DNA of 64,000 nt from contig NZ_CP015136.1 of NCBI RefSeq assembly GCF_001618865.1, positions 5,181,001-5,245,000 on the forward strand. The letters are read 5' to 3'. Below are positions 26,497 through 61,277 of the stretch, one piece after another. The DNA is from Luteitalea pratensis. GTDB lineage: Bacteria > Acidobacteriota > Vicinamibacteria > Vicinamibacterales > Vicinamibacteraceae. Position numbers and translations under genes: made by a program. Position 1 is the stretch's first letter. Each line of letters begins with the position of its first letter. The notes beneath the pieces are model-generated. The model was not told the DNA's origin and did not search any database. It saw only the letters and a list, made by a program, of their open reading frames with translations.

Positions 26497-26724
26497 CCGT
26501 CGACCTGAAGGTCGACGGCTACCTCAAGAGAACGCCGAACGTTGAACGCCGAACGCCGACGTCACGCCACAACCAAGGCTTCCGGGGAGAGCACTGACCG
26601 TCGAGCAAGCTCGACGGCTACACAACCCGGACGAACTGCCGGTCATGATCTCCCGGGAAGATCACTGACCGTCGACCTGAAGGTCGACGGCTACAACGGC
26701 GCGCTGAGGTCGACGGCTACAACG
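26497..26724. repeat. GTCGAC palindrome family, copies 1-4
   Basis: Copies at 26497-26522, 26598-26621 (variant centre GAGCAAGCTC), 26669-26694 and a half copy at 26706-26724. The core is GTCGACCTGAAGGTCGAC, always followed by GGCTAC on the right. The copies share the upstream words CCGGGGA or CCGGGAA and CACTGA, so the duplicated unit is longer than the palindrome. Confidence 0.92.
26530..26557. repeat. Heptad array, 4 units (GAACGCC)
   Basis: GAACGCC, GAACGTT, GAACGCC, GAACGCC in 7-bp phase. The word is the reverse complement of the GGCGTTC words at 26830-26850, so this is the inverted partner of the long array on the other side of the palindromes. Confidence 0.9.
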
Positions 26725-26751: not shown

Positions 26752-26752
26752 C

Positions 26753-26871
26753 GTTCAACCTTCAACCGTCAACGTTCAACTTTCAGTCGTCAACCCTTCG
26801 ACCTTCAGCCTTCCGTCCTTGATCCTTCGGCGTTCAGCGTCCGACGTTCAACGTGCGTCAGGCATCAGGCA

Positions 26872-26878
<7 letters not shown>
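26753..26878. repeat. Heptad array, 18 units, running over the carB stop codon
   Basis: Eighteen units keep exact 7-bp phase although the word drifts: GTTCAAC, CTTCAAC, CGTCAAC, then CCTTCAG, TCCTTCG, GCGTTCA, ACGTTCA and finally TCAGGCA three times. The carB stop TGA (26872-26874) lies inside the last unit, so the last carB codons are made of repeat. Confidence 0.92.
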
Positions 26879-30123
<3,245 letters not shown>

Positions 30124-37646: not shown

Positions 37647-37694
37647 TTGAAGTACGCCGTCCCTGTCCTCTTGAAGTACGCCGTCCCTGTCCTC
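37647..37694 (+). repeat. 24-bp exact tandem duplication at a start codon
   Basis: TTGAAGTACGCCGTCCCTGT plus CCTC occurs twice back to back (37647-37670, 37671-37694). It adds eight residues (LKYAVPVL) to the signal peptide and gives the gene two identical starts. Confidence 0.95.
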
Positions 37695-39619: not shown

Positions 39620-39669
39620 GCGGCCTGTCGTAGGCGTCGACCTTCAGGTCGACGCCTACGACAGGCCGC
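39620..39669. repeat. Perfect 50-bp palindrome containing a GTCGAC element
   Basis: The left arm 39620-39643 and right arm 39646-39669 are perfect reverse complements (24 bp each) around a 2-nt centre. The inner part is the GTCGACCT..AGGTCGAC family; the outer part adds GCGGCCTGTCGTAGGC and its complement. It lies 15 bp after the xdhC stop and could act as a hairpin terminator without a T-run, or as a cruciform. Confidence 0.93.
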
Positions 39670-39738: not shown

Positions 39739-39764
39739 GTAGCCGTCGACCTTCAGGTCGACGG
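39739..39764. repeat. GTCGAC palindrome family copy
   Basis: GTAGCCGTCGACCT, centre TC, then AGGTCGACGG. Orientation is opposite to the copies near 26.5 kb. It is followed directly by a 13-unit heptad array. Confidence 0.9.
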
Positions 39765-39768
39765 TCCC

Positions 39769-39859
39769 GTCCAACGTTCGGCGTTCGGCGTCCAACGTTC
39801 GGCGTTCGGCGTTCGGCGGGAACGGTCCGCGTTAAGCGTTAAGCGTTAGGCGTTAAGCT
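39769..39859. repeat. Heptad array, 13 units, word changes in phase
   Basis: GTCCAAC and GTTCGGC units alternate, then after GGGAACG the word becomes TTAAGCG (three of four units TTAAGCG/TTAGGCG) without loss of 7-bp phase. The array ends 6 bp before the aminotransferase ATG and occupies the place where a ribosome-binding site would be. Confidence 0.92.
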
Positions 39860-39865
39860 GCCTTC

Positions 39866-41053
39866 ATGCCCGCGTTTGGACGCAGCCTGCTCGCCGAGTT
39901 TCCGCTCGATCCGTCGATCACCTACCTGAATCACGGCACCGTCGGCGTGACACCGCGGCGCGTGCTCGCGGTGCAGCAGGCCATCCGCGACGAGATCGAA
40001 CGACAGCCGAGCCGCTTCCTGCTGCGCGAGCTGACGGCACCGGCTACCTCGGTGGGAATGCCACGCGCCGGGACGCCGCGGCTGCGCGTCGCCGCACATG
40101 CGGTCGCTGCGTTTCTCGGCGCCGCCGGCGACGACCTCGTGTTCGTCGACAACATCACCACCGGCGCCAACGCGGTGCTGCGATCGTTTCCGTTCGCACC
40201 AGGCGACGAGATCCTGGTGACCGATCTCGGCTACGGCGGCGTGACGAAAGCAGCGCAGTTCGCCGCGCGCGAGAAGGGCGCGACGGTGCGCACGGTCACG
40301 ATGCCGTGGCCGCCGACGCCGGGCACGTTCGCCGATGCCATCGTCGATGCCGTCGGTCCCAGCACGCGCCTCGCCATCGTCGATCACATCTCGGCCGAGA
40401 GCGCCCTCGTGCTGCCCCTCGCCGACATCTCCGCCCGGTTGCGGTCGAAGGGCGTCGCGGTGATGGCCGACGGCGCACACGCGCCGGGCGCCATTCCGTT
40501 CCGCATTGCGGAGCTCGGCGTCGACTGGTACGTCGCCAATCTTCACAAGTGGATGTGGGTGCCGCGCAGCAGTGGCATCCTCTGGGCCGCACCCGAGCGA
40601 CAGGCGTCGCTGCAGCCCGCGGTCATTTCATGGGGCCTCGACGAGGACTTCACGACGACCTTCGACCTGCCAGGCACGCGTGACCCGTCGTCGCATCTTG
40701 CGGCACCGGCAGCCGTCGACCTCTTCCACGAGTGGGGCCTCGAGGCCGTCCGGCACTACATGCATGACCTCGCGTGGCAAGCCGCACAGCACGTCTCGCA
40801 ACGCTGGGACACGCCGTTCGACACGCCGGCATCGATGATCGGCACGATGGCCACCGTCACGCTGCCAGCGACCCTTGGATCGACACGCGAGGACGCGCAG
40901 CGGCTGCGCGACGCGTTGCTGTTCGAAGATGGCATCGAGGTTCCCGTCCACGCGTACCGGGACCGCCTGCGCGCCCGCATCTCGGCGCAGGTCTACAACG
41001 ACATGGACGACATCGACCGCCTGGCGGCGGCCATTCTCGCGCGTCTGCGCTGA
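39866..41053 (+). CDS. Class V PLP aminotransferase, isopenicillin-N epimerase-like
   Basis: 395 residues. The fold-type I motifs of the CefD/NifS branch are clear: ITYLNHGTVGVTPRRVLAVQ, LVFVDNITTGANAVLRSFPF, DEILVTDLGYGGV, MADGAHAPGAIPF and the PLP lysine in NLHKWMWVPRSSG. Members are annotated as isopenicillin N epimerases, but most are desulfurase- or lyase-like enzymes of unknown substrate. No beta-lactam genes are nearby. The ATG at 39866 is the only sensible start; it has no visible Shine-Dalgarno because a repeat array abuts it. Confidence 0.88.
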   Translation: MPAFGRSLLAEFPLDPSITYLNHGTVGVTPRRVLAVQQAIRDEIERQPSRFLLRELTAPATSVGMPRAGTPRLRVAAHAVAAFLGAAGDDLVFVDNITTGANAVLRSFPFAPGDEILVTDLGYGGVTKAAQFAAREKGATVRTVTMPWPPTPGTFADAIVDAVGPSTRLAIVDHISAESALVLPLADISARLRSKGVAVMADGAHAPGAIPFRIAELGVDWYVANLHKWMWVPRSSGILWAAPERQASLQPAVISWGLDEDFTTTFDLPGTRDPSSHLAAPAAVDLFHEWGLEAVRHYMHDLAWQAAQHVSQRWDTPFDTPASMIGTMATVTLPATLGSTREDAQRLRDALLFEDGIEVPVHAYRDRLRARISAQVYNDMDDIDRLAAAILARLR

Positions 41054-41063
41054 CAACCGTCGA

Positions 41064-41170
41064 CCGGACTTTGTCCGCCGTAGCCCTGGCGAAGGCGGAA
41101 GGTCGACGGCTACGCATGTGCCCTGGCCGGCGGTTGCTGACGCCGCGCGTCGACCAAGGTCGACGCCTAC
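41064..41170. repeat. CCAAGGCTACGG-type element and GTCGAC palindrome copies
   Basis: Contains CCGCCGTAGCCCTGGCGAAG (41075-41094) running into a half palindrome (AAGGTCGACGGCTAC), and a second palindrome GCGTCGACCAAGGTCGACGC at 41146-41165. Confidence 0.85.
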
Positions 41171-41174
41171 ACGG

Positions 41175-41300
41175 CTTGGGCCTTCGGCATTCGGCCTTGG
41201 GCCTTCGGCGTCACGCGTCAAGCGTCAAGCGTCAAGCGTCAAGCATCTAGCGTTAAGCATTCGGCGTTCGGCGTTCGGCGTTCGGCGTTCGGCGTTCATG
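41175..41300. repeat. Heptad array, 18 units
   Basis: Strict 7-bp phase over 126 bp: CTTGGGC, CTTCGGC, ATTCGGC, CTTGGGC, CTTCGGC, GTCACGC, GTCAAGC four times, ATCTAGC, GTTAAGC, ATTCGGC, GTTCGGC four times, GTTCATG. It ends 13 bp before the start codon of the amidohydrolase gene. Confidence 0.94.
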
Positions 41301-47277: not shown

Positions 47278-47445
47278 AATGCCGAAATGCTGGAAGGCCG
47301 AAATGTCGAGAACAGGGGTAGCCGCCATCCCGAGAACATCGGTAGCCGACATGTCGGGAGCATCGGTGGCCGAAATGTCGAGGGCATCGGTAGCACCAAG
47401 GCAAGCCTTCGACATTGCAGCATTCCAGCATTGCGGCATTACTGA
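47278..47445. repeat. Octad array, 21 units, with inverted ends
   Basis: Exact 8-bp phase over 168 bp: AATGCCGA, AATGCTGG, AAGGCCGA, AATGTCGA ... GTAGCCGA, CATGTCGG ... ATTGCAGC, ATTCCAGC, ATTGCGGC. The left end AATGCCGAAATGCTGG matches the reverse complement of the right end CCAGCATTGCGGCATT at 15 of 16 positions, and the complementarity extends to about 32 bp, so the whole array can fold into one long stem. Confidence 0.93.
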
Positions 47446-47456
47446 TTCCCCACAAG

Positions 47457-47526
47457 GCGGACCTGTCGCGCCGAAGCCGCGCCGCGGCGAAGCGGACCTG
47501 TCGCGCCGAAGCCGCGCCGCGGCGAA
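47457..47526. repeat. 35-bp exact tandem duplication
   Basis: Unit GCGGACCTGTCGCGCCGAAG plus CCGCGCCGCGGCGAA at 47457-47491 and 47492-47526. Each copy contains the inverted repeat CCGCG/CGCGG. It ends 6 bp before a TATACT box. Confidence 0.95.
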
Positions 47527-47532
47527 GGCGGA

Positions 47533-53782: not shown

Positions 53783-53872
53783 TTCCGGGTACCGGGCACC
53801 GGGTACCGGGCACCGTCTCACGTCTCACGTCTCAAGTCTCACGATCAGGCCTGAGACCTGAGTCGTGAGACC
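53782..53872. repeat. Heptad array, 13 units, with hairpin
   Basis: GTTCCGG, GTACCGG, GCACCGG, GTACCGG, GCACCGT, then CTCACGT twice, CTCAAGT, CTCACGA, TCAGGCC and TGAGACC/TGAGTCG units, all in 7-bp phase. GTCTCACGA (53836-53844) pairs with TCGTGAGAC (53863-53871). The array starts at the last base of the PilT-like gene. Confidence 0.9.
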
Positions 53873-53896
53873 TGGCCCTATTCCCGGTCCAGAGCC

Positions 53897-53924
53897 GCTC
53901 GTCGACCTGCAGGTCGACGGCTAC
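53897..53924. repeat. GTCGAC palindrome family copy
   Basis: GTCGACCTGCAGGTCGAC at 53901-53918 is a fully perfect palindrome, followed by the family tail GGCTAC. Confidence 0.92.
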
Positions 53925-54007
53925 GTCACCGAATGAGGCATGCGCAGCGTGTTGGGCCGCGCTCGGCGAGCTGGCCCTGCCTCACGACGATTCCACTCTG
54001 CATGCGC

Positions 54008-54063
54008 GATCCCCGATCCCCGGTTCCCGCTTCCCGGTTCCGGGTTCCGGGTTCCGGGTTTCT
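54008..54063. repeat. Heptad array, 8 units (GGTTCCG-like)
   Basis: GATCCCC twice, GGTTCCC, GCTTCCC, GGTTCCG three times, GGTTTCT in 7-bp phase, ending 22 bp before the recX ATG. Confidence 0.92.
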
Positions 54064-61193: not shown

Positions 61194-61277
61194 CCCGTCC
61201 TCCCTCCTCTCTCGTCCGTCCTCCCTCCTCTCTCCTCCGTCCTCCCTCCTCCGTCCTCCGTCCTCTCTCCTCCCTCG
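61194..61277. repeat. Heptad array, 12 units, homopyrimidine-like
   Basis: CCCGTCC, then TCCCTCC, TCTCTCG, TCCGTCC, TCCCTCC, TCTCTCC, TCCGTCC, TCCCTCC, TCCGTCC twice, TCTCTCC, TCCCTCG in 7-bp phase. It has almost no purine and stops 3 bp before the candidate -10 box of rpsT. Confidence 0.93.

Follow-up and report, generated by a model that had tools for sequence, protein, structure and literature searches.

Tandem arrays of 7-bp units (heptad arrays), whose words change along the array, are scattered over the chromosome of Luteitalea pratensis, and they probably constitute an intergenic heptamer satellite that evolves by replication slippage, possibly in an orientation-dependent manner. The arrays were studied from a 64,000-nucleotide stretch of DNA (here the window; positions 5181001-5245000 of the single-contig chromosome NZ_CP015136.1, which has 7,480,314 bp and dnaA at base 16) and in particular from an array at 39768-39858 of the window, referred to below as the named array. 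Identity between units decays locally within the arrays, which contain higher-order units and phase slips, turn over between congeners, lie mostly between genes and, for some of their words, keep a fixed orientation relative to replication. This replication polarity of some array words was unexpected and is more interesting than the switching of words.

Abundance across the chromosome and in relatives

To sample the chromosome, 100 stretches of 20 kb, distributed along its length, were analyzed together with the window (2.064 Mb in all). They held 262 merged heptad arrays, or 127 per Mb, which makes this class of repeat genome-wide. Period 7 accounted for 173 segments in the 1.264 Mb sampled first, and periods 14, 21, and 28 for 118, 72, and 41; none of the remaining periods between 2 and 30 exceeded 23 segments (0 to 2 in shuffles). 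Order-1 Markov shuffles of the same 1.264 Mb contained no period-7 segment at the score used. Tandem 7-bp units are over-represented against other periods, as in intergenic heptamer simple-sequence repeats. The arrays are unevenly spread: among the matches listed, none of four searched heptamer triples fell within an array-poor stretch at approximately 2.82 to 3.47 Mb, and only 3 arrays were present in the 140 kb sampled between 3.0 and 3.5 Mb (21 per Mb).

The complete genome of a congener (G001) carried 36 arrays in 340 kb, a density of 106 per Mb. Smaller samples from the family were uneven, with 2 arrays in 21 kb of G004, 1 in 40 kb of G002, 1 in 40 kb of G005 (which had no period-7 segment), and none in 20 kb of G006 or 12 kb of L034. 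Other families of the order averaged 53 arrays per Mb over eighteen 20-kb samples, with at least one array in 10 of the 18 and other periods nearly as common. Control loci from other lineages (L035-L070, n = 36) held 8 arrays in 543 kb, or 15 per Mb, and 4 of those 8 lay in the five loci with Acidobacteria in their titles. A triple of the word ACCGGGN was present in all five genomes of the genus examined, with a single occurrence in G003, and in 1 of 35 others.

Word drift and phase within arrays

The preliminary description held that the named array switches words over 13 units without gaining or losing a base, and that two further arrays in the window do the same. The features concerned are as follows.

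39768..39858, + strand: named heptad array, 91 bp, 13 units of period 7 with changing words
39768..39812, + strand: 21-bp higher-order unit CGTCCAACGTTCGGCGTTCGG, equal to CGTCCAA CGTTCGG CGTTCGG, 2.1 copies with 100% matches
41174..41298, + strand: second array, words CCTTCGG, CGTCAAG, CGTTAAG, and CGTTCGG, phase kept throughout
26752..26880, + strand: third array, phase slipping by +1 along the array

The named array begins with a block of CGTCCAA and CGTTCGG units (39768-39816), passes through CGGGAAC and a 6-bp piece, and continues as a CGTTAAG block from 39830, its 3' end lying 7 bp short of an ATG at 39866. Any sequence can be divided into 7-mers, and only an alignment of the words can tell whether phase is kept. 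CGTTCGG and CGTTAAG agree at 2 of 7 positions in phase and at 5 of 7 after a 1-bp shift; in line with this, self-identity of the array was 0.52, 0.65, and 0.61 at lags of 41, 48, and 55 bp, against 0.35, 0.33, and 0.31 at 42, 49, and 56 bp. Word alignment and lag self-identity together rule out that the phase is kept in this array: its words do change, as described, but its blocks are shifted by 1 bp. The peaks at 1 bp off register indicate either a base lost at the CGGGAAC-GGTCCG joint or two abutting arrays. Of the two companions, the array at 41174-41298 is in phase (self-identity of 0.57 at a lag of 56 bp, falling to 0.26 at 55 bp and 0.29 at 57 bp), whereas the array at 26752-26880 has slipped (0.43, 0.37, and 0.39 at lags 43, 50, and 57; 0.30, 0.23, and 0.15 at 42, 49, and 56).

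Across the sample, at least two different exact words were present in 50 of the 79 arrays that were 63 bp or longer and in 74 of the 262 arrays overall. In the same 79 arrays, in-phase identity fell smoothly with distance, from 0.80 between adjacent units through 0.74, 0.68, 0.60, 0.55, 0.53, 0.50, 0.48, 0.45, and 0.45 to 0.44 at 11 units, while identity one base off phase was flat at 0.28 to 0.31. Array finding used no lags above 28, and the persistence of phase beyond that distance is therefore not simply a product of how the arrays were chosen. Neighboring units differed by 0 to 2 bases in 736 of 916 cases. Among the 41 arrays that were 84 bp or longer, 23 hold phase over at least 4 units, 13 (the named array being one of them) are dominated by a 1-bp shift, and 5 are unclear.

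The register of word changes was also judged from neighboring exact blocks. Blocks of the same word, or of words one substitution apart, were in phase in 46 cases and out of phase in 3, although most of the pairs printed overlap and so share their phase by construction. Among non-overlapping blocks (14 ambiguous pairs excluded), 13 of 17 with a similarity of 7 and 7 of 8 with a similarity of 6 were in phase. Taken with the more divergent pairs considered below, these counts indicate that small changes of word occur in register and large jumps mostly do not. The smooth in-phase decay, the closeness of neighboring units, and the copied 21-bp unit of the named array all bear out successive copying with substitution, one of the explanations first put forward for the word switch.

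A proposed slippage model

In the mechanism we propose, strand slippage would duplicate or delete one or a few 7-bp units and thereby preserve the 7-bp register. Point substitutions would alter single units, and later slippage would copy the altered units, so that the word would drift from unit to unit with the register largely intact. Rare 1-bp insertions or deletions, or arrays growing into each other, would break the register, with the named array as a candidate example. We place the slippage provisionally at the replication fork, where expansion or survival may depend on orientation and may benefit from having the G-rich strand as the template for leading-strand synthesis.

Arrays simulated with slippage of single units, substitution, and occasional 1-bp indels but with no selection on spacing, and analyzed with the same array finder, had an in-phase identity falling from 0.84 to 0.47 over the lags measured in real arrays at an indel-to-substitution ratio of 0.08. 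Judged by this simulation, the slippage model is sufficient in outline but not unique; since slippage and substitution roughly reproduce the decay, selection on spacing is not needed. Slippage is further supported by the higher-order units of 21 bp and 14 bp in arrays of the window.

Orientation to replication

The polarity of array words was counted from whole-genome exact word searches, in which same-strand matches less than 300 bp apart were merged to loci. A word was scored by its presence in the nascent lagging strand, i.e., in the leading-strand template, with the terminus put at 4.05 Mb after the polarity had been seen and, in congener G001, at the midpoint of 3.23 Mb. Three of the match lists give 100 of 108, 132, and 226 matches, the latter two almost wholly from the right arm, and locus starts were entered by hand and not for every match, except for one of the lists.

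Among the matches listed, 50 of 53 ACCGGGT loci lay in one replication orientation. The preferred orientation was also taken by 28 of 32 GTTCGGC loci and 27 of 35 CGGGAGT loci and, in G001, by 31 of 32 ACCGGGC loci and 27 of 37 CGGGAGT loci, both among the matches listed. The control word GGTCTCA had no fixed orientation (25 of 46 loci, among the matches listed). With the terminus placed at the midpoint of 3.74 Mb, the counts were 48/53 for ACCGGGT, 28/32 for GTTCGGC, and 25/35 for CGGGAGT. A relaxed search for three ACCGGGN units found the expected orientation at 37 of 42 loci on the right arm, and the orientation of both ACCGGGT and CGGGAGT flips, with few exceptions, between 3.911 and 4.194 Mb.

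Outside arrays, by contrast, twelve words in all rotations were on the lagging strand in 45 to 62% of intergenic and 44 to 52% of genic occurrences. The polar words among them ranged from 49 to 56% in intergenic DNA, except for the GACGCTT-type word (45%) and CCTCCGT (47%); ACCGGGT stood at 49% intergenic and 52% coding and CGGGAGT at 52% and 51%, and the maximum for a polar word was 56% intergenic, for ACCGGGC. Since these heptamers are almost or wholly unbiased outside arrays, their polarity should stem from how arrays arise or survive. The pooled GC skew of six chromosome sections was within 0.0122 of zero, with single stretches reaching 0.045. Gene orientation was considered as the cause of the polarity and rejected, because only 969 of 1,730 called genes are on the leading strand, which is too weak for 50 of 53; moreover, flanking genes that ran in the same direction had the ACCCGGT strand as their sense strand in only 10 of 14 cases. 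The best simple predictors of orientation were the difference in GGG (78 to 26) and the presence of G or T at 5 or more of the 7 positions (74 to 23), with cuts chosen on the same data and runs that are not independent.

Earlier work quoted in PMC7023247 found that a hairpin favors deletion when it forms in the lagging template and duplication when it forms in the leading template, and the direction of the polarity agrees with that work as quoted. It may be, at somewhat less than an even chance in our judgment, that the replication fork writes the satellite in an orientation-dependent way: words with a G-rich leading-strand template would expand or survive and their mirror images would be lost, such that the orientation of an array records fork direction and its word drift records the history of slippage. 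In the titles and abstracts of the open-licence PubMed Central literature, we recognized no description of replication polarity in heptamer arrays or of such arrays in this genus.

Several observations weigh against this account of slippage and fork-dependent survival. Separate blocks with very different words are mostly off register (2 of 9 in phase at a similarity of 5, 6 of 19 at 4, and 1 of 7 at 3). Off-phase identity was 0.30 to 0.35 in the best simulation and 0.28 to 0.29 in the observed arrays, so that real arrays hold phase somewhat better than the model. The word repertoire held in common with the congener goes beyond what local slippage alone explains. Not every array word is polar, and C-rich CCTCCGT is oriented the opposite way (12 to 5). 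Hairpin energy predicts the lagging-strand word 127 to 80 overall but only 70 to 59 once words with GGG are left out, and for (G3T)n repeats in Escherichia coli, PMC7023247 found little leading/lagging asymmetry.

Placement relative to genes and turnover among congeners

Genes were called with our own gene caller, and 223 of the 262 arrays were intergenic, 28 genic, and 11 mixed. Arrays were present in 49 of the 212 spacers between convergent genes, in 100 of the 643 between tandem genes, and in 35 of the 247 between divergent genes. Of the 116 arrays in tandem spacers, 40 lay within 15 bp of the upstream stop, where 17.6 were expected, and 16 lay within 15 bp of the start, where 18.1 were expected at random. 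The named array and the array at 41174 each stand just before a start codon; given the lack of enrichment at starts, the position of the named array is atypical.

Congeners carry the gene that follows the named array at 72 to 81% protein identity. In G001, the gap before this aminotransferase-like gene (the open reading frame at 39866) holds a GTAGGCT-type array that likewise ends at the start codon, and in G004 it holds no array. The gap containing the 41174 array is 264 bp long here but 24 bp in G001; in the comparison with G004, it measures 275 bp here and 39 bp in the relative. The array is absent from both relatives. Spacers were compared as gaps between BLAST matches, some of our own spacers being counted against two relatives. 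The 39 aligned comparisons with G001, G004, and G002 comprised 16 without arrays, 10 with an array here only, 7 with one in the relative only, and 6 with arrays in both. No compared unit was identical in the six spacers with arrays in both species; in three of them, some pair of units, picked by eye, was 6/7 alike, directly or inverted, and to judge from this resemblance the arrays in those three spacers may descend from a common array.

The vocabulary of the arrays is restricted: 313 runs were built from 70 strandless cyclic words, against 1,172 that are possible by arithmetic. Words of this set were used by 21 of 40 runs in G001 and by 5 of 15 runs in other sampled relatives, the latter indicating that sharing is partly expected. 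The shared vocabulary may come from exchange between arrays or from shared biases at their birth.

Alternative explanations

Selection on 7-bp spacing, whereby a factor bound to DNA or RNA would read the sequence at 7-bp intervals and the register would be kept while the word changes, was among the explanations offered in the preliminary description. In-phase identity does exceed off-phase identity for at least 11 units, and observed off-phase identity lies below that of the best simulation. However, the named array is 1 bp off register, 13 of the 41 long arrays are slipped and 5 unclear, many orthologous spacers lack an array altogether, arrays turn over between congeners, and a simulation free of spacing selection gives a similar decay. 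This explanation is not supported, and we regard it as very unlikely. In-register exchange or gene conversion between loci, moving whole blocks of words, is unlikely; in its favor are the restricted vocabulary and the use of set words in more than half of the G001 runs, and segments of the 41174 array have matches elsewhere at 74 to 92%. Against it, similarity within arrays decays gradually, large jumps of word are mostly out of register, and the set words found in the other relatives point to sharing that is partly expected anyway. For the named array itself, it is quite possible, though we lean the other way, that two separately born arrays have grown together in place of one array switching its words. 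The 13-bp joint CGGGAACGGTCCG, which has no clear unit and carries the 1-bp phase shift, favors such an origin, yet words that are 5/7 alike after the shift fit one array with a 1-bp deletion.

The placement of the arrays raises the alternative that they are kept for a role at gene ends, such as in transcript ends or mRNA stability, as the excess in convergent over divergent spacers and near upstream stops would suggest. Turnover between congeners argues against such a role, as do the positions of the named and 41174 arrays just before start codons; inverted array pairs were not in clear excess (12 with a similarity of 6 to 7, against 9.2 expected), and avoidance of promoters would yield a similar pattern. 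We consider this role improbable. Polar words could also be chromosome-orienting signals of the AIMS or KOPS kind, in keeping with their strong polarity and its switch between 3.911 and 4.194 Mb apart from few exceptions. The same heptamers have little or no polarity outside arrays, however, and do not become more frequent toward the terminus: the mean ori-to-ter fraction was 0.49 for ACCGGGT (among the matches listed), 0.51 for CGGGAGT (Kolmogorov-Smirnov P value, 0.47), and 0.42 for ACCGGGC of the congener (P value, 0.21), and 28 of 54 ACCGGGT sites, among the matches listed, lay in the terminal half. Such signals are thus extremely unlikely. Slippage with substitution remains the reading that we prefer.

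Other arrays and repeats

Four further heptad arrays are present in the window.

26530..26559, + strand: GAACGCC heptad array, 4.3 copies
53785..53843, + strand: array of the 14-bp unit CCGGGTACCGGGCA, continuing into a CGTCTCA array
54019..54060, + strand: CCCGGTT/CCGGGTT heptad array
61195..61276, + strand: CCTCCGT/CCTCCCT heptad array with a 21-bp higher-order unit

At 53814-53874, CGTCTCA units are followed by roughly inverted CCTGAGA-type units, and the two could form a hairpin. Tandem repeats of other periods lie within 47297-47532 and 37647-37694 (24 bp in 4.1 copies, 35 bp in 2.2 copies, and a perfect 24 bp in 2 copies), the perfect repeat being at the start of the open reading frame listed from 37647. 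Elsewhere on the chromosome, at 5854564-5854880, match positions show a pair of ACCGGGT sites and a pair of GTTCGGC sites, both with a spacing of 162 bp, which are likely a tandem duplication holding arrays; no duplicated segment with a lag of 60 to 419 bp that overlapped an array was found in the sample.

One spacer also holds a dispersed element.

41056..41115, no strand assigned: dispersed palindromic element of approximately 58 bp, in the same spacer as the 41174 array

This palindrome has 32 other places, 31 of them at 88 to 95% identity, with 40 of 585 first-look candidates scored, and related palindromes lie near 39630-39665, 39740-39765, 26500-26525, 26668-26700, and 53905-53930. Its GTCGACC..GGTCGAC pattern had 74 matches in the 2.064 Mb (64 of them intergenic) and 10 in 340 kb of G001, and none was found in 320 kb of other families. 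Spacers with the palindrome were enriched for heptad arrays at lengths of 150 to 300 bp (13 of 26, against 59 of 289) and 300 to 600 bp (13 of 14, against 30 of 165); at 60 to 150 bp, arrays were present in 0 of 11 spacers with the palindrome against 57 of 349. No mobile source of the palindrome was found in a search for PF01797, which gave 4 short matches, two of them adjacent and one with a stop.

Relation to known heptamer repeats

The heptanucleotide repeats of Calothrix are named STRR. Several heptanucleotide words occur in tandem in one genome of this cyanobacterium (PMC4692102). The same paper describes the GGGAATC and GGGGA(C/T)T repeats of Xanthomonas and Nostoc as intergenic heptamers with one word family each; 83% of the Xanthomonas repeats are in the same gene context in two species, and they reportedly have no leading/lagging preference (PMC4692102). 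The arrays described here are likewise intergenic heptamer tandems at many loci, variable in unit number, with G-rich words, rare between divergent genes, and often near the end of the upstream gene. Unlike those repeats, they have many related words, fast turnover, and a strong polarity of some words: in place of a single GGGNATC-type family there are 70 words, many without GGG, and ACCGGGT, at 50 of 53 loci among the matches listed, does have a preference. G-quadruplex formation is a further feature of the Xanthomonas and Nostoc repeats, and in our arrays the words GTTCGGC and GGTCTCA have no GGG run.

The TAACTGA direct repeats of the Beggiatoaceae have one fixed word, with related heptamers rarely repeated, and some stand before start codons (PMC4679880). 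They have in common with our arrays that they are intergenic heptamer direct repeats at many loci, some just before start codons; they differ in that words drift here and that starts are not enriched (16 of 116 arrays within 15 bp, against 18.1 expected). AIMS are 8-mers whose abundance and bias rise toward the terminus (PMC5993296). A strand bias about the ori-ter axis is common to both, but the bias here is in arrays and does not rise toward the terminus, so that neither the chromosome-wide strand bias of a word nor the terminal rise that mark AIMS and KOPS was found. The arrays belong to the broad kind of heptamer repeats and are a many-word, fast-turning, partly polar variant of it.

Many bacterial genomes have an excess of heptamer repeats, for which there is little explanation. 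Here, a single genus provides approximately 100 arrays per Mb, which draw on many related words, turn over between species, and are in part oriented to replication, whereas the Xanthomonas study reported seeing no such orientation. Because the bias is largely or wholly confined to arrays, a link between fork direction and repeat expansion becomes directly testable in a natural chromosome. If true, the fork-written satellite would show, across a whole natural chromosome, the kind of leading/lagging repeat instability that plasmid assays have revealed.
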